A DNA stretch of 64,000 nt, from contig NC_049988.1 in assembly GCF_000003815.2 (NCBI RefSeq), forward strand, positions 2,752,340 through 2,816,339. Direction: 5' to 3'. Both the position numbers and the translations under genes were made by a program. Positions 3,412 to 50,400 of the stretch are shown here, piece by piece. Position 1 is the first letter of the stretch. Each line of letters starts with the position of its first letter. The DNA is from Branchiostoma floridae. Taxonomy: Eukaryota > Chordata > Leptocardii > Amphioxiformes > Branchiostomatidae. The notes under the pieces were generated by a model. The model was given only the letters and a program-made list of their open reading frames with translations. It was not told the DNA's origin and ran no database searches.

Positions 3412-3920
3412 AGGCAACACCAATTTTATTTGTTGTTTCTCTGATTTTTTTCAGAAAAAAATTGGGTCGGTCGGTCGGTCGAAAAAAAATAAAAATAGAA
3501 CTTTTCAAAAAGTCGGGGGAAGGTAGCCTCCATAGCAGGCTCTCTATGGCCTTTTTTGGCAGTTTTGCTGGCCATTTCTTTTTGTACTGGGTCGCTGATT
3601 GCTGGCCTTTTCTGACAGCCGGCTATGGAGGCTAGGGGAAGGAGAGATTGGACAGGAAAACCTAAACTTTCAACATTTAGGGGTTCCCTGGTAGCAAAGT
3701 CCAAAGTTTGAAGAATAATGATAAACGTACCGTCCAAAATAGGCACGCCACAGCTACAGTAATTTGAGGCCCATAGTTATTTTGAGAAAGGAGAGGCAGT
3801 GAAATCTTGTCAACACGAGGTGTGGCCATCAATTTGAAAAATTTTTGTTCTGTTTTTTTCAAATCGGAAAAAAATAGGGTCGGAAAATCCGAGAAACAAC
3901 AAATAAAATTGATGTGGCCT
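3412..3920. mobile_element. MITE family A, copy 1 (termini GGCCACACCAATTTTATTTG)
   Basis: The left end (about 3413) reads GGCAACACCAATTTTATTTG and the right end is its near-complement, finishing ATGTGGCC at 3919. Inner arms carry a GGTCGG-rich block. Related full copies are at 10225-10575 and 34038-34404. A second element (3524-3634) is inserted in it. Confidence 0.75.
3524..3634. mobile_element. hAT-like MITE family B, copy 1, with 8-bp target duplication
   Basis: A 111-bp element with ends TAGCCTCCATAGC and GGCTATGGAGGCTA. It is flanked by GGGGAAGG at 3516-3523 and 3635-3642. Removing the element and one flank restores a sequence close to the uninterrupted relative at about 10460-10490 (read on the minus strand). 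An 8-bp duplication is typical of hAT-superfamily insertions. Confidence 0.8.
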
Positions 3921-6122: not shown

Positions 6123-6791
6123 TTGAAGAATAATGATAAACGTACCGTCCAAAATAGGCACGCCACAGCTACAGTAATTTGAGGCCCATAGTTATTTTGA
6201 GAAAGGAGAGGCAGTGAAATCTTGTCAACACGAGGTGTGGCCATCAATTTGAAAAATTTTTGTTCTGTTTTTTTCAAATCGGAAAAAAATAGGGTCGGAA
6301 AATCCGAGAAACAACAAATAAAATTGATGTGGCCTTACCAGCGCTTTAGGTCGACCAAAAAAAAGGCTAGGGTCGAAAGGTTTTGCCTGGGTAGCTCGTG
6401 GAACTGCAAACATTTTTTCTAGGACGTCGTACCACAACTATTTCACACACACATTCCCCCGTGAAAAGCACACACACTCCCCGTTTTTTCAGACGTGGCT
6501 TACATGTCCTAATAAGGTCACGCATGAATAATTTAGAGGATGATGAGGCAATGTCTGCAGTCTGCAACAAAACCGCAATTCATCATTATTTTTAACCTTG
6601 GTCTGTGATCTAAATTACTGTGATTTGATTAGATACGCAAAGAATACCGTAAATTCCTTTAAATTCGAATGGACTTTAATTTTGCGGTATGGGAAATTGA
6701 AGAGGGAGTTTTCGGTTGGGACACAGTGTGTATTGCTGACGCAAATGCTCTGCCATTCGCGCTGATGATTTTGTGAGTTTACCACAGAACA
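6123..6791 (+). repeat. 669-bp duplicated segment, copy 2, truncated by the gap
   Basis: Identical by eye to 3708-4376 and cut off at the N run. The sequence after the gap (6906 on) does not continue the match. Either a recent tandem duplication or an unresolved assembly overlap. Confidence 0.9.
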
Positions 6792-7476: not shown

Positions 7477-10400
7477 ATGGCGGTCATCGGCAAGATCTTC
7501 GCGGCTCTCGCTGCGGCTGATGTCGGCGCCTCGGCGTGGTTTGCGGCGGGCTTCCTCGGCGTTCTCACCGCCTACCTCTTCTGGAAGCTCCGGAGCGGCA
7601 AGAGCCCGTTTGCCGAGGACTGCGCCCGCTCGCCCGCCCCGCTAGTCACCGACCAAGCCGCCCGCGACAAAGTGCTGAAACAAGGTACGGAAAAATACTC
7701 TCAATTTCTCTCGTATAAGACACCGATATTAGAATTTCATATTACAGGCATAGTTATTATTTTGATGATAAACATTTCAATGTTTTTCCTTCATATTTTC
7801 AAAATACGAGGCTGTTATCATTTTGCGAATAATAAACAATAAGGCCGGGTGACAGATGTTGTTCTATGCTCATTTTGCATCAGAATGGGGGCGGTACGTT
7901 GTAGATTACGGGTTGCCTTTGGGGACGGTGCATTGTACTATATGGGTGGCCTGTCTGTTTCTCACCCATTGTTGGAGTTAGCTGTCTAGAATCTGATATT
8001 TTTGCTCCATTTTAGGATAAGACAAATGAAGTGCTCAGGATGACTTTCAAATTTGTGTGCAAAAGATGCCCTCAGTCTATTAGTCACCTCATACTGTCAG
8101 TCGTTGTAATATATACAGTCGTTTTACTTTCACAGTCACCACCACAAAAATCGTGGTACGTACCATGAATATCTGTTTCCATTGTTATGATTGTATAACA
8201 GTGTTACAGAATTGTTCCATTTACCTTTCCCCTTATGCACCGAAATTGAGTTTCCACAAAAGTCCTGGAGGGTTCTAGCTAGTGCATTTTAGCGTAGTGG
8301 GCCACTACGCTAAAATAAGGGCCACTACGCTAATTTTTAACTAGTGCAGTGGTGCTTTGCTGTCATTTGCTTGTTCAACAATGAGAAATAAATGTCTGAA
8401 CAATGAAAAATGATGATATGCCACTCAAAACTGACTCCAAAATCCTAACTTTTAACTCTACATCTTCAAATCTCACTGTGGAAGGACCTTCCACACCAAT
8501 CTCCTGATTAGTTGCTTTGCTACCATGCCATTTCCACTACGCTAAAATAAAATCCTGGCTAGAACCCCCTAAGTGAATGGGTTTTACAGTAGGTGACTGG
8601 CTTGTTATTGTTCACCTAGACCTTGGGGTGGTAGCACATAGCCATTGGTTTACTTGCTGTTTCTACATAGCAGGGTACTGTAAATGCAGAAATGTTCGCA
8701 GCTCAGGCTTAACCGGTTAGGCTACAGGTTTGCTGCTGTATAAATTTTCCCATCAGATCCTGTCTGGTCCAGTTAGATTTCATTATCGAGAATCATACAC
8801 AACAGAAGATTATTGTCTCACAGTTAGCAGGAGCTGTGTACATACAGCTAAAGCATGCGGCTCAAGTGGTCATATTTTACAGTGTCAACAAGAAATCAGT
8901 GTGTCCCCAAGAGCCTTAAGCATTTGCACAAATCTTGTTAAAAATGCAGGAAATACTGTGCGAAAATGTGCACATTTTATGAAAAAACACAAATCACTAT
9001 GCGAAAATGTTCAAAGATTTTCATTTTTCTCATTAAAGTGTGTGTACTACGAAACCAAAGTACAACATTTTCTGATTATTTTCCACAACCATGGTAATAA
9101 TTTTGTTCAATTAACACACATGTTTGCATTCATGCCAAATATACGCCCTTTTCCTGTTATGAGACATTGTGCCATCAAAATTCTTTCTTCAGACCCCAGG
9201 ATTTTGTTGTAAGGTAGTCCAGAATTAATCATGCAAGTGACGTCATGTTAAACATGGCAACTAGTTCTTAATCAAGCACCACGGTTAGTGTAAAACATAC
9301 TTTTGAGAAGCAAAATTTGAGAAGTTCTTATCTTTAGCTGCTTAATCATTATGACTTTCTGTAATTGCAAGTTTTGCAACAGAACAATATTTCCTTTCGC
9401 AGCTCTTCACGAGTTCCAAATGCTTAATTGAATTTACCCCTGCAACAAAATGCTCGAGTCTGAAGAATGGTTTTTGATGGCGCAATGTGCAGTAACAGGA
9501 AAAGGGCGTATAGTTGGTGCAAATGCGAATGTGTATGTTAATTGAATGATACTATCTTGGTTGTGGAATATAAACAAAATTACTTGTGCTAATTGGTTAA
9601 GTACGCCATTTAACTTCTTCACCATGAACTTAAAACGGCCATGAATTTTTCCCTTTTGAATATAAAACCCTGTATCTTAGTTTCAACAACAAAGTTAAAA
9701 CCACAGCAAATACTGCATTTTCTCCTGACTGCGAAATCAAATCACTCAAAACATTTCCCCTTTTACAGTAGTCTTCAAGCAGATGTTCGGTGTGACTGTA
9801 AAGTTGTTGTTGTTATTGTGGACCACTATAAGTAACACTTTCCATTTCATCTTACTAAATCACAGGATTCGCCATCAAGAAAGTCCCAGAGAGTCTAGAT
9901 GCCATTGTGATCGGTAGCGGGATCGGAGGATTGGGGACGGCCGCCATCTTGGCGAAAGCGGGGAAGAAGGTCCTTGTTCTGGAGCAGCACGACCAGGCTG
10001 GGGGGTGTTGTCACACGTTTGTGGACAAGGGCTTCGAGTTTGATGTCGGTAAGTTTAGAATAACACCATAAAAGTGAGTTAACATCTTTCTCACACTGTT
10101 TGGCATATAGGACAGCTCCCATCTACGTTTGTATGGCCCTTGGACCACACAGTTGTGCAAGCACTACAGCAGTATAGCCTCTAAAGAAAAGGCTAAGGGA
10201 CTACATTTACCTACCTTTACCCAAGGCCACACCAACTTTATTTGTTGTTTTTCGGATTTCCCGACCCTATTTTTTCCGATTTGGAAAAAAAACTTTCAAA
10301 TTGATGGCCACAAAATTTCACTGCCTTTCTTTTCTCAAATTAATTATGGGCCTCAAATTCCAAATAGCTGTATGTGCCTATTTTGAACGGAACGTTTATC

Positions 10401-10658
10401 ATTTTTCTTCAAACTTTGGCTACCAGGGACCCCCCAAATGTTGAAAGTTTAGGTTTCTGCTGTCCAATCTCTCCTACCCCCGACTTTTTGAGAAGTGTTT
10501 TTTTTTTTCGACTGACCGACCGACCCAATGTTTTCTGAAGAAATCCAAGAAACAACAAATAAAATTGGTGTGGCCTAAATATCACTGCCATTGGTCTGTT
10601 GCCACCAGTTTTATGACATAGGATGAGGTAGATTGCACCTAGCCTAATTTAATTGCAC

Positions 10659-10738
<80 letters not shown>

Positions 10739-13700
10739 CAGCCCAACCAACACTACAAGTGTTACGGCCCTGGACAGTGGAGTTTGCGTTACACAGACAA
10801 AGTTGCATTGGTAGCCCTACTTCTCATCATTTTATATGACACAATTTTCCAAGGCCTATCATCACAGGGTACAACCTACGTTACAGGATGGCCTGAGACA
10901 CATTGGATACACAGGTAGAAATATCAGCTGCAACACGCAGGCACAATTGGTGGTGAGGCAAACCTGTCACCCCTCGCACGGAGAAAAGTTTGAGACCTGA
11001 GTACCAGCCACGACATGTAGACAAATTCGAAGCCGTGCAAAGCTATCAGCCGCATGCACAGTAATTTCAGCCTTAAGGTTGCCACACCAGGTGATGGCCA
11101 AACGTTTCTGCGCACGAGAGCTGACAGGTCGCCTCACCACCGAATGCCTGATATTTCTCCCCGTGTATCGAATATGTCCCGCCATCCCGCGATGTAGGTT
11201 GTACCCTGTGATTATGTAATTTTAGGACAACATAGCAAAGTTGATTTTCCTACCATTTGTATAGAAACCCTTATGATCTAGCTAGCCTGGTGTGTGCATA
11301 AATGGCTTGTCCGCCCCAGAAAAAGTTACAATGTAGTGTACAGTTTGTTGTTGTTTACACTCAGGGTCTGTTTTGAGATGTTTTGTACGGTTTTATTTTG
11401 CACAATTCACAAGCACTCAGAAGACCAAATATGCTGAAAAGTGGTTGTACAACTCATTAAAAGGCAGGAAGGTTTTGTTCTCAATAACATTTTCAATTTT
11501 GTGGCTAAAATCTCACCTAAAGTCCATTTTTTCAGGGATCCACTATGTGGGCGAGATTTGTAACCGACTTCCCAACCAAGTCATCACGGAACAGATCACG
11601 GAGGGGCAGCTGCAGTGGGAGGAAATGGACGAAGAGTATGACACCATCGCGCTGGGATCCTTCGACAAGGTACAGTATCATCAGACATTTCCCATTTACC
11701 AGCTTCTGTTATATAACGATGTATTATGTTTTTGCCCAGTGGTGCTTGCTTGAGTGCAACACTAAGTTGTGTACCGTATTTCCTTTTTGTTGTAATAAAA
11801 AAAAGTATGAAAAGCACGGACATGAAGGGCGACATGACATTGGGCCATAAATGCCATTATGGTAAATATAGAATACAACACGGTGCATTCCGTATCACCC
11901 GAGGTACCAGCCTGACCCGCGGGAGGGCTGAGACCGAGGGTGTTGCGGAATACACTATGTTGTATTTTGTTTATGTCATACCAAGGACGTTATATCAGGT
12001 GATATAACGTCCTTGGTCATACCCACCTGAGAAAACACAAGTTTTTGACCAGTGGAAGACTAGCTCTTCAGTGAGCTAAAATGTCTCAATATCACTTTCA
12101 TGTTACGTAATGTACATGTACATACATGACAGTGTGACTGTAACTCACAATATTTGTTTTGATTGGTTGCCCAGCCCCGATGGATTCCCATGAAGAAAGG
12201 TTACGAGAATTTTAAGAACAACCTTCTTCAGCACTTTCCGGAGGAAGGCAAGGCCATCAATGAGTTTGTCAGCCGACTACAGGTGAGTGAGACGGTCTGT
12301 GTGTGTCTGTATCGGTATAACCACTTTTTCATCATCATCATCATCTTTTGGTGTAACACACTAACTTCTGTATCTGTATAGCTGGTATAACTGCCTTTTG
12401 ATGTAACAAACCAGCTTCTGTATCTGTTTATGATAGCTGGTATAACCGCCTTTTGGTGTAACAAACCAGTCTCTGTATCGGTATCTGTATAGCTGGTATA
12501 ACCGCATTTTGGTGTAACAAACCAGTCTCTGTATCGGTATCTGTATAGCTGGTATAACCGCATTTTGATGTAACAAACCAGTCTCTGTATCGGTATCTGT
12601 ATAGCTGGCATAACCGCATTTTGGTGTAACAAACCAGTCTCTGTATCGGTATCTGTATAGCTGGTATAACCGCATTTTGGTGTAACAAACCAGTCTCTGT
12701 ATCGGTATCTGTATAGCTGGTATAACCGCATTTTGGTGTAATATATTACCAGCTTCTGTATAGCCGGTATAACCGCCCTTCAATGTAACACACCAGCTTC
12801 TGTATCGGTAAGCCTGTATAACTGCCTTTTGGCGTAACACACCAGCCTCTGTATCTGTATAGTTGGTACAACTCTATACCCTTCGGTGTAACACACCAGC
12901 TTCTACATCTGTATCTACATGGCCAGTATAACCACCCATTGACTTTGCACGCACATGGTGCAGCTCAGCTGGTTACGTTACACTGAACGACCTGGTCATA
13001 ACTTTGGTACATATAGAATACAACACGGTGTATTCCGTATCACCCTAGGTATCAGCCCGACCGCGAGTCAGGTCGCCCAACGGCCAAAGGGCTGGGACCG
13101 AGGGTGATGTGGAATACGCCGTGTTGTATTTTATTTATGTCATACCCACCTAAGAAAACCCCTGTTTTGATGCGAAATGTGCCAAAAGTTGAACAAATTT
13201 GGTTCCCTCGAACAAAAAGTGTTGCAACAGTAATGTTCCAACGTCTGAATCAGGTATTCGAACATTCGTTGGCACCGAACTGGGCCCGCTCGAAACTGTT
13301 CGATTTATTCGAATGGAGCCTGTGTGATACGCCTTTCGAACCGGTCTGATGCGGAAGTTATGGCCCGGTCCGGAACACCCGTATTGAACGTTTTCGCGTC
13401 ACGGGTGTGACATAAAGTACTGAAGCAAAGGGCACCACCTCCCGTACGTGCAATTTGTCCGTAGGTTTTTTTGGCTGGCCATTTCCGCCACGTATCTCTG
13501 AAAACGTTCAGGCTGTACAGGGCAGGCGTGTCACGGGGGCGAATCCGCAGCCCGATGGCACACAAAGTTTTACCAGCATGCACGTAAAGTTCTACGGCGT
13601 GTCTGCGTGCTCCAAAATCCGTCGGATTCCCTACGAGTTTGTACGAAGGCAGTACTTACCACTTACAGATCCCAAAAGATTGCTCACGTTTTGACATGCA

Positions 13701-16700
13701 GACAGCACGTATTTGCACGTACAGTGGGTTGTGCCCTTAGCTTGAACAACCTTGGCACAGTAGCTTTTCAGAAAAGCATGCTAGTGATGTTTTCAACCAA
13801 GCATGCCAGGTCACTCGTACTCTTTTCGATAAGTTTGCTTGGTTCTATTCCGTTCAGAGGTGAGGCTTACACCTTTCACCATCTGAAAGGATAAATATAA
13901 GTTATAACATGTACCCGAGTACTGGACCCCTGTTGCGAAAGAAATGGTGTGTACATCATCATCATCATCGGTCGACGTGATCACACATGTTCGCACATGT
14001 TTACACACGACAGGGTTGTACCGCCCCTTATGGGGTGACATACCCTTTCGCTGGCTAATTACAAGACAGGGATGCGCCAGGTCTCCCGTCCGGGTGAATG
14101 ATGTAAATCACCATGTGGCTGATTCGAGACAGGTTCGCCAGACCTCCATCCGGGTGATTTGAAGTTTGAATCACCAACTCCAGACGGAAGGATTTGTCCG
14201 CACACCGCACAGTCGCACGTGTGGGGGTTCTTTAACGTGCATGGGGTGTGGCTCTCCCCATACACGGGACCTCCATTTAACGTCTTATCCGAGGGACGGC
14301 CCTAGCCGAAGCTAGGTATTCATTCTCACCTGAGAAAAGTGAGCAGTGTTAAGTGTCTTCCCCAAGGGCACAAGATCGGTATAACGGCAGCCGGATTCGA
14401 ACCTGAGACCTCTCGGTCCCGAGGCAAACATGCTGCCACTGCGCTACCAGTCCCATGTTGTGTACACCGTTAACAATTTGTTTTTCTTCACATTTTGCCC
14501 AGTCTATCCAGAGAGGAGGTGTTATGTATGTTGTACTGAAGATCCTGCCTCTGTGGCTGGCCACCTTCCTGGTCAAGTCTGGGCTCATCCACTGGGTCAC
14601 CTGCTTCTTCAAACACCTCCGGCCACTCCGGACAGTCACTCAGGAGCTGACCGACAACAAGGACCTGCAGTGCGTCATGTCCTACAGTTTTGGAGACTAT
14701 GGTATGTTTGTTTGTTTGTTTATTTGTTTGTGTCGGAAAGAATTTGTAAATACTGTACATCTAAAGCAGAGGAATACGAAACACATTTTATTTCCAAGTG
14801 TTCATTAATTCAACCAAACAGAAAGAATCACTTTGTTTATGTTTATTGTTTATTCTTAGGCACTGTGGCCCATAAAGACAAACAATGTACATTTAGAGAA
14901 GCCACAAAGACATTTCCCAACTTCCCTACATTCACAGACGAACATAATCCACAAACTTGCACAACTTCCACAAACTTGCATATGCATATTTCAAGCCCTG
15001 CCCAACCACAATGAAGACTACTTTGCCAATGTACAGAGATTACAAGGTCCCCTAAACTCTGACAAAGTCATTCAGGTATTTTCTGAATTGAACAAAAGGT
15101 GGCAGTACAAAAGTACTGTCCTCATTCCATGGTGTAAAAATGGGTTCCAGAATTGGTTGGGGAGGTAAAAGGCGGTGGAAGCGGCCTTCCAATACCTTGC
15201 CCTAGACACAGTGGATAACAACCCACTATACCTATGGACTCAAAAAGGCTATATGACTATCTATAAAAACCTCTACCTTTGTTTCTAAGGTGTTCTACCG
15301 GAAAAAGCACCTTTTGCGATGCAAGCTATGGTGATGGCCCACTTCATGGAGGGGGGGTACTATCCGAGGGGCGGCGCCAGCGAGATAGCCTTCCACATTA
15401 TCCCTGTCATTCAGAAGGCAGGAGGGGCGGTGCTGGTCCGAGCTCCTGTCAATCAAATTTTGATTGGCAGCAATGGAGAGGCTTGTGGTAAGTGGTAACA
15501 GATGCTTCAACTGATCTTTTGTTTACTGAGAAAAATAAGCTTTTAAAAATTCTTTTACTCAAGGGAGTTTTGACCGAATGGTCTTTTTCAGATATTTGAC
15601 CCAAGTGCTGTAGACACGTGATTCTTTTTGTCCAACGTGACGTCACCAATGTGTCAAAGTTTATTTTTCACATTATGTAATTTACCGACTCAGATTACTT
15701 TTCATGGTACATGTAATAGATATTTAGTGGTGTCTAATGAAATGTGTGTATGAGTAACTGTACATTCATTTTAGTGTGACAATAATATCACGATTGGAGG
15801 GGAGATTGGAATTATAGTTGGAGACAAACTCCAAATGAATATTATATTAGTAATGGATTGCCTCTTGTTTCGGAAGGCGTCCGGGTCCACAAGAGCAGTG
15901 GAGATGTGGACATCCACGCCCCAGTGGTCATCTCAGGAGTGGGCTTCACCAACACTTACAAGTACCTCCTGCCTACCCAGATAGTGGAGAAACATGGTGA
16001 GTTCATGGATCCAATACGTACAATGTTGATGGCATCCATCTGTCTCGGAAGACAATGGTAGGCAGACAAATTAGGTTAGAGGACCTGCCAAGCCTTCGCG
16101 TGACTTTTTTTTTTAAGGTGGAGGAGGGGTGTGCACTCCCTTCTCCAACCTCTCGTCTACTAGCGCACAGGGACAAGAACTGCATGCCACGTGTAAGATG
16201 GCCCCAGCAGTTGCAGGTTTGTTGTTTGGAGTTTCCGTCTCCTAGGAAGACTTCAGACCAAGGATGCAAGGGGTTCCTCCTACCCCTGACTCGTGTATAG
16301 CGGATGCGTCATGCCTGAACATGCCACTAAGGCCTGCTACTGCTACAAAGGCCTGTCACTGCTACTAGCCGCAGCTAGGGACTCATTTACACCTGAGTGT
16401 TTGTTTGTTTGTTTGTTTGAACCTTTATTTATTCATGAAAGCTCAAATCGGCCTGCAGGCCGCTTTTCATTGAGGTCATGAGGTTATGAGTGTAGTTAGG
16501 AAAGTCCTGTAAAGTGCCAACAAGATCGGTGACACGGCAGGATTCGAACTCGGGACCTCTTGGGCCTTAGCCCAACGCACTGCCCATAGCGGCACTCAAT
16601 CCCACGCACAATATGCACAATAGACCCGTTTGAACCACACAAACTACCTACATCATAGGGGGGATTTTACTCCCGAATCATAACGTCATCACGCTTGTCC

Positions 16701-28097: not shown

Positions 28098-28243
28098 AGC
28101 AGATACAAGTCCAGTCGGACTAACACAAGTAACACAATCATAATGGTATTTATAGGATTATGATGAAAAACTGAAAGAACTGATCAGCGATCCGAACAAA
28201 TTAGGATTGGTGTGTTGAAGGGATAGGGTTATACATACTGACC

Positions 28244-28270
28244 AAGGACGTTCCTGATGTAACGTCCTTG
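28244..28270. mobile_element. 27-bp palindromic insertion with 8-bp target duplication
   Basis: AAGGACGTT, 8-bp spacer, AACGTCCTTG. Flanked by TACTGACC at 28236-28243 and 28271-28278. Same termini as the 33-bp insertion at 11983-12015 but a different target site. A degenerate third trace (AAGGAGGG then TAACGTCCTTGG) is at about 42473-42492. Confidence 0.7.
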
Positions 28271-28821
28271 TACTGACCAAATTCGTGGAATGTTGTTCAA
28301 ACCCATTCTATTATTTACGGACATGCGCGCTGACATAGACAGTCTATGAACGAAATCCCCCCCCCCCCCCCTGAAAAAAAAAACAGTTCAAATTTGTGGT
28401 CCAAATTTGTCTGGGCTTGTTTGCAATGGTTATGGTATTGTTTGCAGTGTAACCTATGACCTTACCCACAATGCTCTGTAACTGTGCACCAGTGGGCTTA
28501 GTATACTAGTATGTTAATGAGATGAGGTCATTGTTAGTGATGTGTCTTTAATGTGGTCCAATTGTCTTCCCTGTTTCATTGCAAAAGTGGAAAAAGTATG
28601 TGTTATAGTAGCCTGATGTGTGAAATGAAAGAAATAGTTGTAAGGAAATTGGCAGCTAGGGTGATACCATACTTGTGCTAGAGACTACAAGTTATGTATA
28701 TGTGAAAAGGTTGGGCCAGTAGAAAATGATATTTAGAATTATAGTGAGTCAGATCATTCGTATGGATGTCCCTGTAGCTCAATTGGTAGCAGCATTGCTG
28801 GTTGCAATTTTTTTGCAATCA

Positions 28822-31250: not shown

Positions 31251-31359
31251 TAGCCTCCGGCCGGCTGTCAGAAAAGGCCAGCAATCAGCGACCCAGTACA
31301 AAAAGAAATGGCGAGTAAAAGTGCCAAAAAAGGCCATAGAGAGCCTGCTATGGAGGCTA
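31251..31359. mobile_element. hAT-like MITE family B, copy 3, with 8-bp target duplication
   Basis: Reverse orientation relative to the copy at 3524: TAGCCTCCGGCCGGCTGTCA to GCCTGCTATGGAGGCTA. CTTTTTTC flanks both ends (31243-31250, 31360-31367). This independently confirms the 8-bp duplication for the family. Confidence 0.85.
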
Positions 31360-41400: not shown

Positions 41401-44400
41401 AATGTTTAGTGGGCTGGATAACTAGAAGTCTCTCATGGTTTTAGTGAACAACAAATGCGGACTCGTAGGTAAGATCTCTGGAATGGATGATGGGTGATTT
41501 CGTGAGCAAGAGTTTTGTTGTTGTTTTTTTACCATTTTTTGACCATTCCTTTAGTTGGTTAACCTTCTTGCAAAGTGACATCAAAGTTATCATTTATTTT
41601 GAGATGTCTTAAGGCTATATCTTAAATGCAGTACAATCTGTACATGATATATAATGATATTCCTCTGTAGCCAATCTTCTATAGCCAATCTTCTATATAA
41701 ATATAGAAATTAAACAAGTAATGCAGTTGACTTGTATACAAGAAATGTAGACTTGTAGATTGAGTTATACTTAGAACTTTTGGGAACAATTCTATAACCT
41801 TTGATCTGAAGCTCTAAGTTACTACAAATGTCACTGTGAGATATGTTCTAGAACTACAGTATTATCTGTTCATTGGTTCATGTTACATGGATGATTTATA
41901 TTTGGAGCCAATGCATCTTGTTGAAAAAAAACTTTCAAATAAAGTCACTCTGTTACAACTTCAGAACCTTGATAGTGTAAGGTTGCATCAATGTCCGCAG
42001 GCTGGCTAGTTTTTAAAGGCTACCGTATATGTTCAATGCTGTACAATCATGTATGAGGCGTAGGAAAAAATGTTGAGTTTCCCTACCTACCCTAGAAAAA
42101 CCTGCCGACCCTAGCTTTTTTGGGGGGTGGGCAGTGGAGTCACATACCAGTAGCTTCCACTTAGAATTTTTATTCAGCCTGCTTCCTACTGAAGTAAAAA
42201 CACTGCTTGTCTTGTCTAATTAATTATAAATGTATCTATTAAAGTTAAAATCTAAGTCTGACATTGAAAGACAAGTGTTGTCGTGCATTTCAGTTTACTT
42301 TGTTCAACTGTATTTGTAATATGTATCACTACAGTTTTGGCCAGCCTAAAAAAATGAAAAGAAAAAAAAGATAATCGCTACCTACCGACTCTATTTTTTT
42401 CCCTAGGCCTAATGATCTTCCTCTCTTGTCATAATCTTCTATATAGAAATTATACATGTAATATTGTAATACAAGGAGGGTAACGTCCTTGGACTAATAT
42501 CAAGCTTGCAGATTAATGAGTTACACTTAGAGTGCATCTTTTTTTAACAATTCTGTAACCTTTGAGTAAATACATCTATTTCTGGAACAATCCAATATGA
42601 CCTTGTTCCCCAAACATCTCTTGAGACCAACTCTTCTCTTTTGAATTTACCATTAATATTGCCAGTGAGACACAAAAGGCAAGTAGAACAGTCTCCCGGG
42701 ATTCGAACCCGGGCCCGCCAAGTCACAAACCCAACGCCAGAGCTTCTAGGCCAAAAGGTCCGGATCTTTGTAAGCACTTGAATCCCACTGTTACAATAGG
42801 TTGCTGTCAGGAATTGCCAGAATTCTCTAATCTCAAAGCAGATCCCACGGTGCCATAAGATTGTATCAAAGCTGGCCAAGGAGTATAGCCGGCTAAGGGA
42901 GTCTAAAACGGCTACGTTACGTTTGATACTATTATTACAGTACGTCACCGTGGATCTGGTTGGAGATTACCCATGTAGGCCCTCATTCAGGATAAGTTTC
43001 ATACATGTAACGTTATATTGATATGCAAAGTTATATATGATGTTTGGGCCACCATTTTAACCATGAATTCATATGTCAATTGTACTTGTGCCTACAGGCT
43101 TCACTACAAAGAAAGTGCCTGATGACTTGGATGCGATCGTGGTCGGCAGCGGGATCGGAGGGTTGTGTACAGCTGCGCTCCTTGCCAAGACGGGAAAGAA
43201 AGTCTTGGTACTGGAACAACACGACCAAGCCGGAGGATGTTGTCACACTTACGTGGACAAGGGCTTTGAGTTTGATGTTGGTGAGTGTTGATAATACAAC
43301 CAGAAAGATGTTATACACATTCATGTTGTGCTACAATCCCTGTAAAATAATTCAAAACTGTGAAGCTATTAAAGCTCAACCAAAACTAACCCTTCTGCTA
43401 AGGGGAACCCCTCGCACGCGACTTAAGGTCCCCGTGGGAGTACTGCATACTAATTGGAACAGCAGACGGCTATGTAGGGAAGAATTTCAAAATAGGTAAA
43501 TTACTTGTCTTACTTAAGTCTTTAATTGTTTACAGTGGTGTTACTGTATTACAGAATAATTTCAACTGCAACCATAAATCACTCCAAAAAGCCTCTCCCG
43601 AGCTACTGCAAAAATAAATGAATTTGCAGTACTGTACAATTCATGGAGAAGGATTGGATGAAGCCTGAAAGTTCAAAGGACCAATGTTTTGAGTATCCCC
43701 CATTCACAAGCAATTAGGTCCAGACCTGGACCTGATCCTCTGGACCTGCACCGTACCAGTAGTACCTGAATTTTCTATACCAGTACCCACCCAAGAAGTA
43801 AATGTTTGTCAGTGTTTGCTTGAAGTTTTATGAAAAGAATGACTTGTTGCAGGTATCCACTACACGGGTAAACAGAACTGTGTGCGGACATGGCAGAAGG
43901 TCCTGAAGGGTGGGACAGTGAACCAGGCTCTGGTACAGCAGATTACTGAGGGACAGCTACAGTGGGCCGAGCTGGACAAGAGTTTCGATATCGTCATGAT
44001 CCAACATGGCGAGAAGGTAACATTTAAAAATTTGTATGTTCAGTTTCGATACTGTGTCTCAATTTTCAGTACGCATGATGATATTGTCATTCCGTGGGTC
44101 CAAAAAAAAATCAGCATTTCATAATTGGTTTTACAATTGCGTATCTGATCATATTCATACTTGTATACTGTGGCTTGAGTCACCAGATAAATGCAACCTC
44201 AATGCTTAGCCATATACAAATGTAGGTTGAATTCCGTTGATGCATGCGTATGAATTCCATCCCAGCGTCAGCGGACATGTTGTGAGGGATTGCAAGTGTA
44301 ACAGTGGGGTTCAAGCATCGCCAAACTGATCATGCCAAAGGCTTGGAGCTTTTGGTATAGCGGTTCAGTATGTTGGGTTTGTGATCTGACGGCCCAGATT

Positions 44401-47400: not shown

Positions 47401-50400
47401 GCTGTTGAGTGGAGTCCAATTTTTGTGTTGGATATTACAGTTAAACTAATTCAAGAATATCCAGAAATGTTTGCCCACATTTTCACCTGGCAGAAGTAAT
47501 TCATACCTGCGAGACGCCAGGTCCTATAACTTTGGTTGGGTTCAATATAATATCATTTGAATGTGTTCTATTTCTAAGTATTATCTTAAAACAGACAATC
47601 ATACGTGATCACAGTTTGTGAGAAAAATCTCAATTGGGATGCAATTCTGTATCTATATAGCCAGTATAACTGCCCCTCTGCGTAACACACCAGCTTCGCA
47701 AGCACGCAGTGCGGCAGCAGCTTGTTATATTATACCGAACGACCCGTCACACAGAACAATTTGTTGGATTCAACTAGTTTGTTGAAAACTACCAAAACTG
47801 TTGATAACCGGAATTTGAAAGAATGAACCAATCAGAAAGACAGATACATAGGACACTTACCAATCAGAATGAAAGATACACAAAATGTAGGCTGCACGCA
47901 TGCGAGTTCAAACGGTTCAAACCATACTCCCTGAAATATGATATATGTGACGCATGGAAGTAAAGGATAGCTCAACATGAAATACATTACATGACACAAC
48001 ATATTACAACACTTAAAAGGATACAAAAACATGGAAGGCAGTTCAGCACCAAGGGCAAATAAAGTGAAAGGTAGACTTTCTTGAAAATACTTCCTCCTTG
48101 TCATTTCCAACCAAATTTTATATACATAACAGGTTTTAAATATATATAATTACAGGATTCAAATTTGTCTTAACTCTTCACTTCAGGTGCACACTGGGAC
48201 TCTGGACGGCTTCATCTTCATGAAGATCCTTCCACTGTGGCTGGTCAAGCTTCTGATCGGGACAGGACTGGTCAACAGGCTGACCAGCTTCTTCAGTGTC
48301 ATGTCACAAAGCACCAGGGACGTGCTGGACAGCATCACCGACAACCAGGACCTGAAGGCAGTACTGTCCTACAACTACGGAGACTTTGGTAGGGGTTTTG
48401 TAAGAAAGGAGTAGAAACAGAAAGTATTAATATCCTGAGTCCTGGGGTTTGAACCCGTGCCAAATCCAGGCCCCCAGATCAGAAATCCAGACGCTAGACC
48501 GTTACCCCGAAAGGCTTACACTTTCCAAGATTCGTCCTCGAATCTCCGAGTTCGATATCCCTGTGTGGCGAATCTCTAGCCAATTACATGCATTGTGGCA
48601 TGTCTCGAAAATACAGTATTTTTTGAGATCCTGTGCAATATCCTCAAATAAAGTGTGCAACAAGTCATTGGCAGCAACTTTCGATTTTGAATTTTTGGGA
48701 AAATGACTATTGTGTAATTTAATCCTGACAGGCTCTCCACCGAAGGACTCAGGTTTCCTGATGCAGGGTATGACAGTGCTGCACTTCCATGAGGGAGCGT
48801 ACTACCCGAAGGGCGGGGCCAGCGAGATAGCCTTCCACATTATCCCCGTCATCGAGAGGGCCGGGGGGGCCGTGCTCGTCGCTGCACCTGTCACTCAAAT
48901 TTTGATTGACAGCGATGGAAAGGCTTGTGGTAAGTACATATAGAATACAGCACGGGGTATTCCTTATTGCCCAAGGTATGGCTTGACCGCGGGTAGGATT
49001 GCCTGAAGGCCAGAGGGCGATCCCACCCGCGAGAGGGCCAAAACTGAGGGTGATACGAAATACACCATATTTATATCATGCCAACCCGAGCAAACTTGAG
49101 TTTATCACACACAAAATATAGACATCAACTGCACATTGCGTCAACAGCTTCGTCAATTCGAAAAAAAAAAGAACCTGACAAAGAAACGAAACAGTTTTTA
49201 ACAGAAGCGCACTCAAGCGAGTTTGAATAGTTTGAATCAAACTATGGATCCCTGCGCCACACCATAAAGTACAGACCGGTCGGAACACTGATATCAGACG
49301 TAAATACGGACCGAGTATGATCTAAAGCTAAGTATTGAAATTGAATGAATTTCATAAACCTCTGTGATATTATTTTTCATTCCAATCTAGCTCCTAAATT
49401 GTTCCCTGGCATGTTTAACCTTTCGCTTACCAATAAGAGATTAGATGATGCTGATTTCTGTCTGCTCATTTATACATTGCGTTTGTGCATGTGCTATTCT
49501 AGGTGTTCGTGTGCACAAGAGCAGCGGAGATGTGGACATTCACGCGCCGGTTGTCGTCTCGGCGGCGGGGGTCTGTAACACGTACCAGAAGCTCGTTCCT
49601 CAACCTGTGGTCAGCTCACACGGTAAGGCATTGATGTCCTCATCATTTATACGTGGTCAAACCTGCTCAAGTGACCACATCTGCATAAGGACCAACTCGT
49701 CATTGTGGCTAGTTTTTCATGGTTTCTTTAATACTGTAAATGCATTTAAGTTCGCGGAGATTTAATTTCGCGGTAGCGGGAAAATGGACTTTTCGCGGTG
49801 GATTTAATTTCGCGGTAGCACCATGCACTGTAGTCCCTTACTGTTAAGGAAAAATTTTTGCGGTGGTTTTAAATTCGCGGTGAACCGGCTGCCGCGAAAA
49901 CCACGAACATTAATCCACCGCGAAAGTTTCTGCATTTACAGTAATTTTTCCCATTGATGCATAACATAAACAAACGGAAGGCAGTTCAGCACCAAGGGCA
50001 AATAAAGTGAAAATTTAAAGAAAGCTAAAACTTTATCATAAGACACTTCCTCCTTGTCATTTCCAACCACATTTGATACTTAAACATACTATAACTTATC
50101 ATTAAAAGTAGTTACTGTAGTAGTAGTAAAACAGGTTTCCAGTGTAGTGACAATCAGACATCCAATGATGATTGGCAAGATCTACCGAAAATTCATTGTG
50201 TCATTTTGTTTTGGAACAGAGCTCACATGGATTCTACCAAGTGACATAGATTAGCAAATCTATTGACATAGGTGAAAATATGATGATAATCATGGATTCT
50301 TTTAAACAAGGGAACAGCGGCGCTGCGCCCTCATGCCCTGACCATGCGCCCCCTTACCCTGGGGAGCAGATCCTCTGATTGACCAGGGATCACATGTGGC

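Follow-up and report, generated by a model that had tools for sequence, protein, structure and literature searches.

The closest described counterparts of the sequences analyzed here belong to P-type transposons. P transposase makes its cut in the non-transferred strand 17 nt within the element, so that 3' extensions of 17 nt remain (PMC7776569), a stagger that the cited papers, where they touch on it, present as atypical and tied to the Drosophila enzyme. In Rad51-mutant flies, the Drosophila P{wa} junctions given in Tables 1-3 of PMC2895639 consist of a duplication, up to 17 nt of tip, a microhomology or insertion, the inverted tip and the second duplication. Many fly P excision junctions in that paper retain little tip, a class that the patterns used in the present work would miss. 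An AC insertion recurs among the fly junctions, with three isolates given in a single row of Table 1 of PMC2895639, so that recurrent fillers are possible. Galileo belongs to the P superfamily; its duplications measure 7 bp, a few of them 8 bp, with GTANTAC as consensus, and its target motif is a palindrome of 15 bp (PMC4168063; PMC2775673). Zebrafish THAP9 in fly cells produces larger flanking deletions than the Drosophila transposase (PMC10983969), and N-RAG-TP of Aplysia consists wholly of RAG1 N-terminal-like sequence (PMC8355894). Among the papers listed in searches on lancelet MITEs and P elements, on P/THAP9 excision and on N-RAG-TP, no title or abstract opening reports such footprints in a lancelet genome; searches for the shortest MITEs returned nothing relevant, and those listed among the papers matching the tip strings look unrelated by title.

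The 64-kb stretch of lancelet DNA that was analyzed (hereinafter the window) contains, at 11975-12023, a near-perfect palindrome (16+2+16 within CAAGG..CCTTG) flanked by GTCATACC. The letters read, in order, GTCATAC, CAAGGACGTTATATCAG-GTGATATAACGTCCTTG, GTCATAC and C, so the palindrome proper is CAAGGACGTTATATCAG+GTGATATAACGTCCTTG, 2 x 17 nt, bounded by the 7-bp duplications GTCATAC (Table 1). The initial annotation had recognized both this flanked palindrome and the uninterrupted flank in the foldback repeat at 13015-13131, and the window letters bear out both. Its proposal that the states before and after insertion coexist also holds: in addition to the empty paralogs in the window, uninterrupted paralogous sites are found elsewhere in the genome (L059, L060, L061, L002-L006 and L008), where the site reads GTCATACCCACC; the foldback paralog L007 diverges after GTCATACCCA. 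Because the same flank is uninterrupted in these paralogs, the window site carries a net insertion of 41 bp. The empty sites already have the C that follows the right duplication, and in the genome census only 8 of 38 perfect 7-bp repeats precede a C, which indicates that the eighth matching base is due to chance. The duplication is accordingly 7 bp and the unit 34 nt; the 8 bp and 33 bp originally assigned have to be corrected, and the duplication itself stands. L137, a diverged copy of the parent element described below, has the tip in its CAC form, with AAGGATTGAG after it; this form is the right-hand tip of the window palindrome, so that the join in the window is exactly 17+17.

Table 1. 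Transposon footprints and foldback copies in the window (positions refer to the window)
Feature	Coordinates	Strand	Remarks
Left 7-bp target-site duplication, GTCATAC	11975..11981	.	Window letters, genome census, empty paralogs
One transposon tip, 17 nt, CAAGGACGTTATATCAG	11982..11998	+	Intact inverted repeats of relatives run past nt 17
Other transposon tip, 17 nt, reverse complement CAAGGACGTTATATCAC, joined bluntly to the first	11999..12015	-	In relative L137, the same tip is followed by AAGGATTGAG
Right 7-bp target-site duplication, GTCATAC	12016..12022	.	The next base, C at 12023, is target sequence
Older foldback repeat, approximate limits, adjoining the transposon insertion point	11865..11974	.	
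Paralogous foldback copy, approximate limits, with empty (uninterrupted) site	13013..13160	.	Repeat noted at 13015-13131
Third foldback copy, approximate limits, more diverged, uninterrupted	48938..49110	.	Repeat noted near 48943-49090
Second footprint: TACTGAC, CAAGGACGTTC + CTGATGTAACGTCCTTG, TACTGAC	28236..28277	.	11 + 17 nt; tips at 28243-28270
Probable degenerate tip join, CAAGGAGGGTAACGTCCTTG	42472..42491	.	Lacks the 7-bp duplication: 1/7 match, 5/8 at 8 bp

The initial annotation overlooked the footprint at 28243-28270, the 11th base of which may be filler, and 42472-42491, which is probably a degenerate third tip join. Among CAAGG..CCTTG pairs of 8-70 nt in 40 versions of the window simulated with a first-order Markov model, none had a perfect 7-bp repeat at its flanks and one had a 6/7 match, compared with two perfect cases in the real window. 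Looser settings applied to the same 40 simulations gave, in total, one pair with a 6/7 match, four with one-mismatch tips and two long-distance pairs. These simulations rule out a chance origin of the palindrome together with its duplication. Two footprints in 64 kb, against approximately 1 per 1.3 Mb genome-wide (403 in 513 Mb), represent a local excess.

Several other repeats were observed in the window and in the foldback family. A ~56-bp unit forms a tandem array at 12345-12915, in the same intron as the palindrome; the segments at 9876-16070 and 48740-48930 contain what we take to be exons of tandem genes resembling retinol saturase (RETSAT). Related ~110-bp elements at 3524-3634 and 31251-31359, in which the ends read TAGCCTCC.. 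and 8-bp repeats lie on either side (GGGGAAGG; CTTTTTTC), probably represent another MITE family, and a ~85-bp stretch with TGTGGCC flanks that is found twice, at 3827-3914 and 6242-6329, 2.4 kb apart, is apparently a local duplication. In the foldback paralogs L002-L006 and L008, TTTATGTCATACC recurs ~300 bp or more away in the opposite orientation, so this repeat family may belong to a longer element that has inverted ends of its own.

The host genome (513 Mb, 431 contigs) contains 403 matches to the pattern CAAGGACGTT, 0-30 nt, AACGTCCTTG, and none to the reversed-pattern control; a scan of viral contigs gave no matches and is uninformative. Flanks were scored for all 50 matches listed of the 403. 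A perfect 7-bp duplication is present at 38 of these 50 and a match of at least 6/7 at 43, compared with perfect 8-bp duplications at two and none at 5, 6, 9 or 10 bp. The duplications anticipated in the initial annotation are thus a genome-wide feature, with a length of 7 bp in place of the 8 bp that it assumed. Both target duplications are kept around the tip sequence, the arrangement that characterizes a P-type excision footprint. The 49 sites with perfect duplications (these 38 together with 11 from the set of junctions longer than 34 nt) share the target motif nTnnGTnnnACnnAn over 15 bp, in which the outer T (37 of 49) and A (35) and the inner T (38) and A (35) are prominent, and the inner G (28) and C (16) are weaker. 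The tip subfamilies as a whole are those with CAAGGANNTT tips, and the figure of 403 counts the CAAGGACGTT..AACGTCCTTG pattern alone. We also observed a second tip subfamily, CAAGGAGGTT..AACCTCCTTG, with perfect 7-bp duplications at L082:5311-5341, L083:955-980 (where one tip of the pair has a mismatch) and L083:2260-2294, so that footprints probably number well over 403 in total. The four 10-kb stretches inspected next to single tips (L082-L085) yielded no intact partner tip flanked by a duplication.

The junctions between the tips are diverse. The 50 listed sites contain 32 distinct junction sequences, the commonest being one 24-mer (eight sites) and one 31-mer (four sites); the most frequent lengths are 31 nt (10 sites), 34 nt (nine) and 24 nt (eight), and the others range from 22 to 48 nt. 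The 34-mers include exact blunt 17+17 joins, the 31-mers are 17+14 joins, the 24-mers are joined at the self-complementary ATAT of the tip, and further sites contain short fillers. Such variable junctions, with microhomology, blunt joins and fillers, are characteristic of excision footprints. L010 and L011 are copies of one event, and leaving out L011 gives 49 distinct sites. The longer tip at these sites measures 16 nt or less in 27 cases, 17-18 nt in 20, 19 nt in one and 24 nt in one, the pattern requiring at least 10 nt of each tip and base 18 often being common to both tips. Tips therefore extend to 18 nt or less in 47 of the 49 distinct sites, whereas the inverted repeat itself runs for ~27 nt.

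Junctions longer than 34 nt account for 72 of the 403 matches, which by subtraction leaves approximately 331 at 34 nt or shorter. Among 20 of the longer sites, fetched from 50 listed of the 72 and partly picked so that recurrent palindromes were represented, the duplication is perfect at 7 bp in 11 and at 8 bp in three; two of these three (L110 and L111) lie 172 bp apart and share an identical duplication. Perfect palindromes of 36 nt (with centres CATG, ACGT and GATC) and 42 nt (AGGCCT) recur, mostly with different duplications. A strict 17-nt cut explains these palindromes only with recurrent fillers or longer retention of the tip. Together with the 21-24 nt of a tip that are retained at L026, L069 and L091, they call for fillers, for overhangs that are longer in some subfamilies, or for a different process.

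A search with one tip alone gives a similar picture. The 17-nt tip CAAGGACGTTAYATCAG occurs 262 times in the genome, and 35 loci were taken from 100 listed, in list order up to C3:25.2 Mb, with those already seen omitted. At these loci, which hold at least 17 nt of tip by choice, with position 18 left free, and some of which also fit the two-tip pattern, the match to the inverted repeat ends at nt 17 in 29 of 35 cases, at nt 19 in four, at nt 21 in one and at nt 24 in one; in L095, one of the four, nt 19 is the start of the duplication. An exact second duplication lies within 65 nt at 22 of the 35 loci, against ~0.3% per locus expected by chance, and is absent at 13. In the one-sided forms L079 and L095, 16-17 nt of one tip are retained and none of the other. 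A tip of no more than 17 nt derived from a longer inverted repeat, as expected of a P-type footprint, is thus the usual state, L026, L069, L091 and the recurrent 36-42-mers being the exceptions.

The same tips are found on intact elements. L022 contains a 1573-bp element with these tips and the 7-bp duplications ATATCTG, and a genome search with this element recovered at least seven full-length copies of 1538-1577 bp, the query included; the search scored the best candidates only, so this number is a lower bound. The other six copies are 95-98% identical to the L022 element. All seven are flanked by perfect 7-bp duplications, and their inverted repeats match at 26-27 of 30 positions and continue beyond nt 17 as NAGGACTG; the footprint tips are the first 17 nt of this repeat. 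Two further copies have duplications matching at 7/7 (L135, which carries an insertion) and 6/7 (the diverged L137) positions. The initial annotation had suggested that the palindrome could be two transposon tips joined with nothing between them, and that a longer element with the same tips should be sought; these 1.54-1.58-kb copies support both suggestions. The 1.57-kb element is a defined sequence repeated whole between duplications, as a MITE would be, and the scars, which vary in junction and length, are not. All seven full-length copies (L128-L134) also contain a scar nested at the same internal site, as the exact 24-mer in five of them, with one change in L134 and as an altered, shorter remnant in L133. 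Its presence at one site in all the copies marks an excision older than their spread, and the nested scar could possibly serve as a marker for dating that excision.

Candidate transposases were identified through PF21787, the P-type RNase H family, which has three hits in the genome. Two loci, L105 and L106, contain long frames with a TNP-like RNase H domain (E 8.6e-22 and 6.5e-21, respectively), and the RAG1 importin-binding model matches the same frame in L105 (E 7.1e-8) and a neighbouring frame in L106 (E 7.2e-10). Both loci contain a convergent second frame beside the transposase (L105:7974-9062 and L106:643-1698); the two are similar by eye, and this second frame matched no Pfam model and no phage record. 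The L106 transposase frame matched no solved structure. The THAP DNA-binding domain, usual in the P superfamily, was not detected in the 15 open frames surveyed at the two loci (five main frames and 10 short ones between the ends and the transposase), a survey that short exons could escape. We therefore describe the element as P-type, short of claiming full membership in the P superfamily, although the parent element does show the 7-8 bp target duplication with a GT..AC preference by which that superfamily is recognized.

The loci with transposase frames have ends of their own, CAAGGAGCTTTTATCAG (L105:1633) and CAAGGAGGTTGAATAAG (L106:8240), upstream of these frames, and they carry other tip subfamilies, CAAGGAGCTT and CAAGGAGGTT. 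The regions inside these ends are homologous to the 1.57-kb element: the best piece covers 82 bp at 77% identity in L105 (E 1.9e-10) and 199 bp at 68% identity in L106 (E 4.4e-12), the E-values referring to a set of seven loci. The end-to-end alignment of L106 with the element scores 78.5, whereas the highest score among 500 base shuffles is 36. The presumed far ends of L105 and L106 have 13 bp of tip in common and lack a matching duplication.

Taken together, these observations make it highly probable that the window palindrome is the excision footprint of a P-type transposon. On this reading, GTCATAC was the target of a transposon with tips CAAGGACGTTATATCAG/C, whose insertion generated the 7-bp duplication. 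Its transposase would later have made a staggered cut, on one strand at the end of the element and on the other 17 nt inside it, leaving the donor ends with 17-nt 3' tails of tip sequence, and end joining would have filled and sealed these tails to yield 17+17 nt between the two duplications. The site at 28243 would record the same type of event with one tip cut back to ~11 nt. The varying junctions, the tips that usually end at or before nt 17, and the one-sided forms all point to excision followed by end joining; the chemistry of the cut, the pathway of joining and the transposase that would have served are deduced indirectly, and the putative 17-nt staggered cleavage is read from the lengths of the scars. 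Against this reading stand the junctions longer than 34 nt, the 13 tip loci with no exact second duplication, the copy at 42472, the transposase loci with their other tips and unmatched flanks, and the frames in which THAP was not detected. No element and scar were seen as alleles of one locus among the loci examined.

The alternative implied by the initial annotation, namely that the palindrome is a self-contained MITE of 20-42 nt moved whole by a transposase, appears very unlikely. It would account for identical palindromes at different sites (the 24-mer at eight and the 31-mer at four of the 50 listed sites), for the recurrence of the 36- and 42-mers and for the empty sites of the window copy. 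It does not predict junctions that vary in length from 22 to 50 nt, 32 distinct sequences among the 50 listed, one-sided loci such as L079 and L095 with 16-17 nt of a single tip, the prevalence of forms that are 17+17, 17+14 or joined at self-complementary patches, or the presence of exactly these tips on intact elements. The requirements of known P elements bear on the same point: Drosophila P elements require no less than 138 bp at one end and 216 bp at the other, and Anopheles P-MITEs, which are more favourable to the alternative, retain less than 100 bp per end (PMC1562414). Given that the junctions vary, the tips usually end by nt 17 and one-sided forms exist, the idea that the short unit itself is mobilized, as one of the smallest known, is not supported.

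Internal deletion of resident elements, through aborted gap repair or recombination between the inverted ends and without excision by a transposase, seems if anything less probable. The minority of loci that retain 21-24 nt per tip (L026, L069 and L091) are compatible with it, but breakpoints spread across the element would be expected, whereas those observed fall at or before nt 17-18 in 47 of the 49 sites, in patterns that, the 17-mer search excepted, are blind to much longer remnants; moreover, 29 of the 35 tip loci end at nt 17 of a ~27-nt repeat. A hAT-type footprint or element has next to no probability. CAAGG fits the hAT end consensus, the initial annotation gave an 8-bp duplication, and two of the 50 listed sites have perfect 8-bp duplications, but the duplications are mostly of 7 bp (38 of the 50), where a hAT origin calls for 8 bp, and the transposase with homologous ends has a TNP-like RNase H domain. 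In addition, hAT excision leaves footprints of the flanks and not 17-nt tips. The hAT identity suggested by the CAAGG tip is therefore set aside on the duplication length and the type of transposase.

Returning to excision by a P-type transposase, we somewhat favour a broader interpretation in which a chordate P-type transposase that has exchanged THAP for a RAG1 N-terminal-like domain cuts with the 17-nt stagger, and its excisions have written hundreds of palindromic scars that form an archive of microhomology-mediated and templated end joining in the germline. The length of tip kept in natural scars would make the stagger of a transposase readable without biochemistry, and the present data suggest that a distant P-type lineage, one with 7-bp duplications and a RAG1-like N-terminus, shares the 17-nt stagger. 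Natural junctions in the hundreds, formed on near-identical ends, would likewise give access to germline end joining in a non-model animal. In the annotation of repeats, it should be borne in mind that a short palindrome between clean duplications can be a footprint and not an element.

Compared with the known systems, the lancelet scars have the same layout as the P{wa} footprints of Drosophila but are natural, number in the hundreds per genome, and have 7-bp instead of 8-bp duplications and unrelated tips. They resemble Galileo in the predominance of 7-bp duplications with few of 8 bp, the GT..AC consensus and the 15-bp palindromic motif; compared by description, Galileo has long foldback-like repeats, whereas the lancelet element has an inverted repeat of ~27 bp and no THAP domain was found in the frames surveyed. 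Pdre2/THAP9 is likewise a chordate P-type element starting with CA, and THAP9 excision has been shown in the zebrafish system (PMC10983969). Pdre2, as described there, differs in its 8-bp duplications and 13-bp inverted repeat, and the N-terminus of the lancelet transposase fits the RAG1 importin-binding model; the lancelet scars are clean, unlike the products of zebrafish THAP9, which counts against reading them as footprints. Finally, the lancelet transposase loci share with N-RAG-TP a RAG1 N-terminal-like region in a transposon protein (PMC8355894), but in the lancelet, unlike in N-RAG-TP, this region is fused to, or adjoins, a P-type RNase H.
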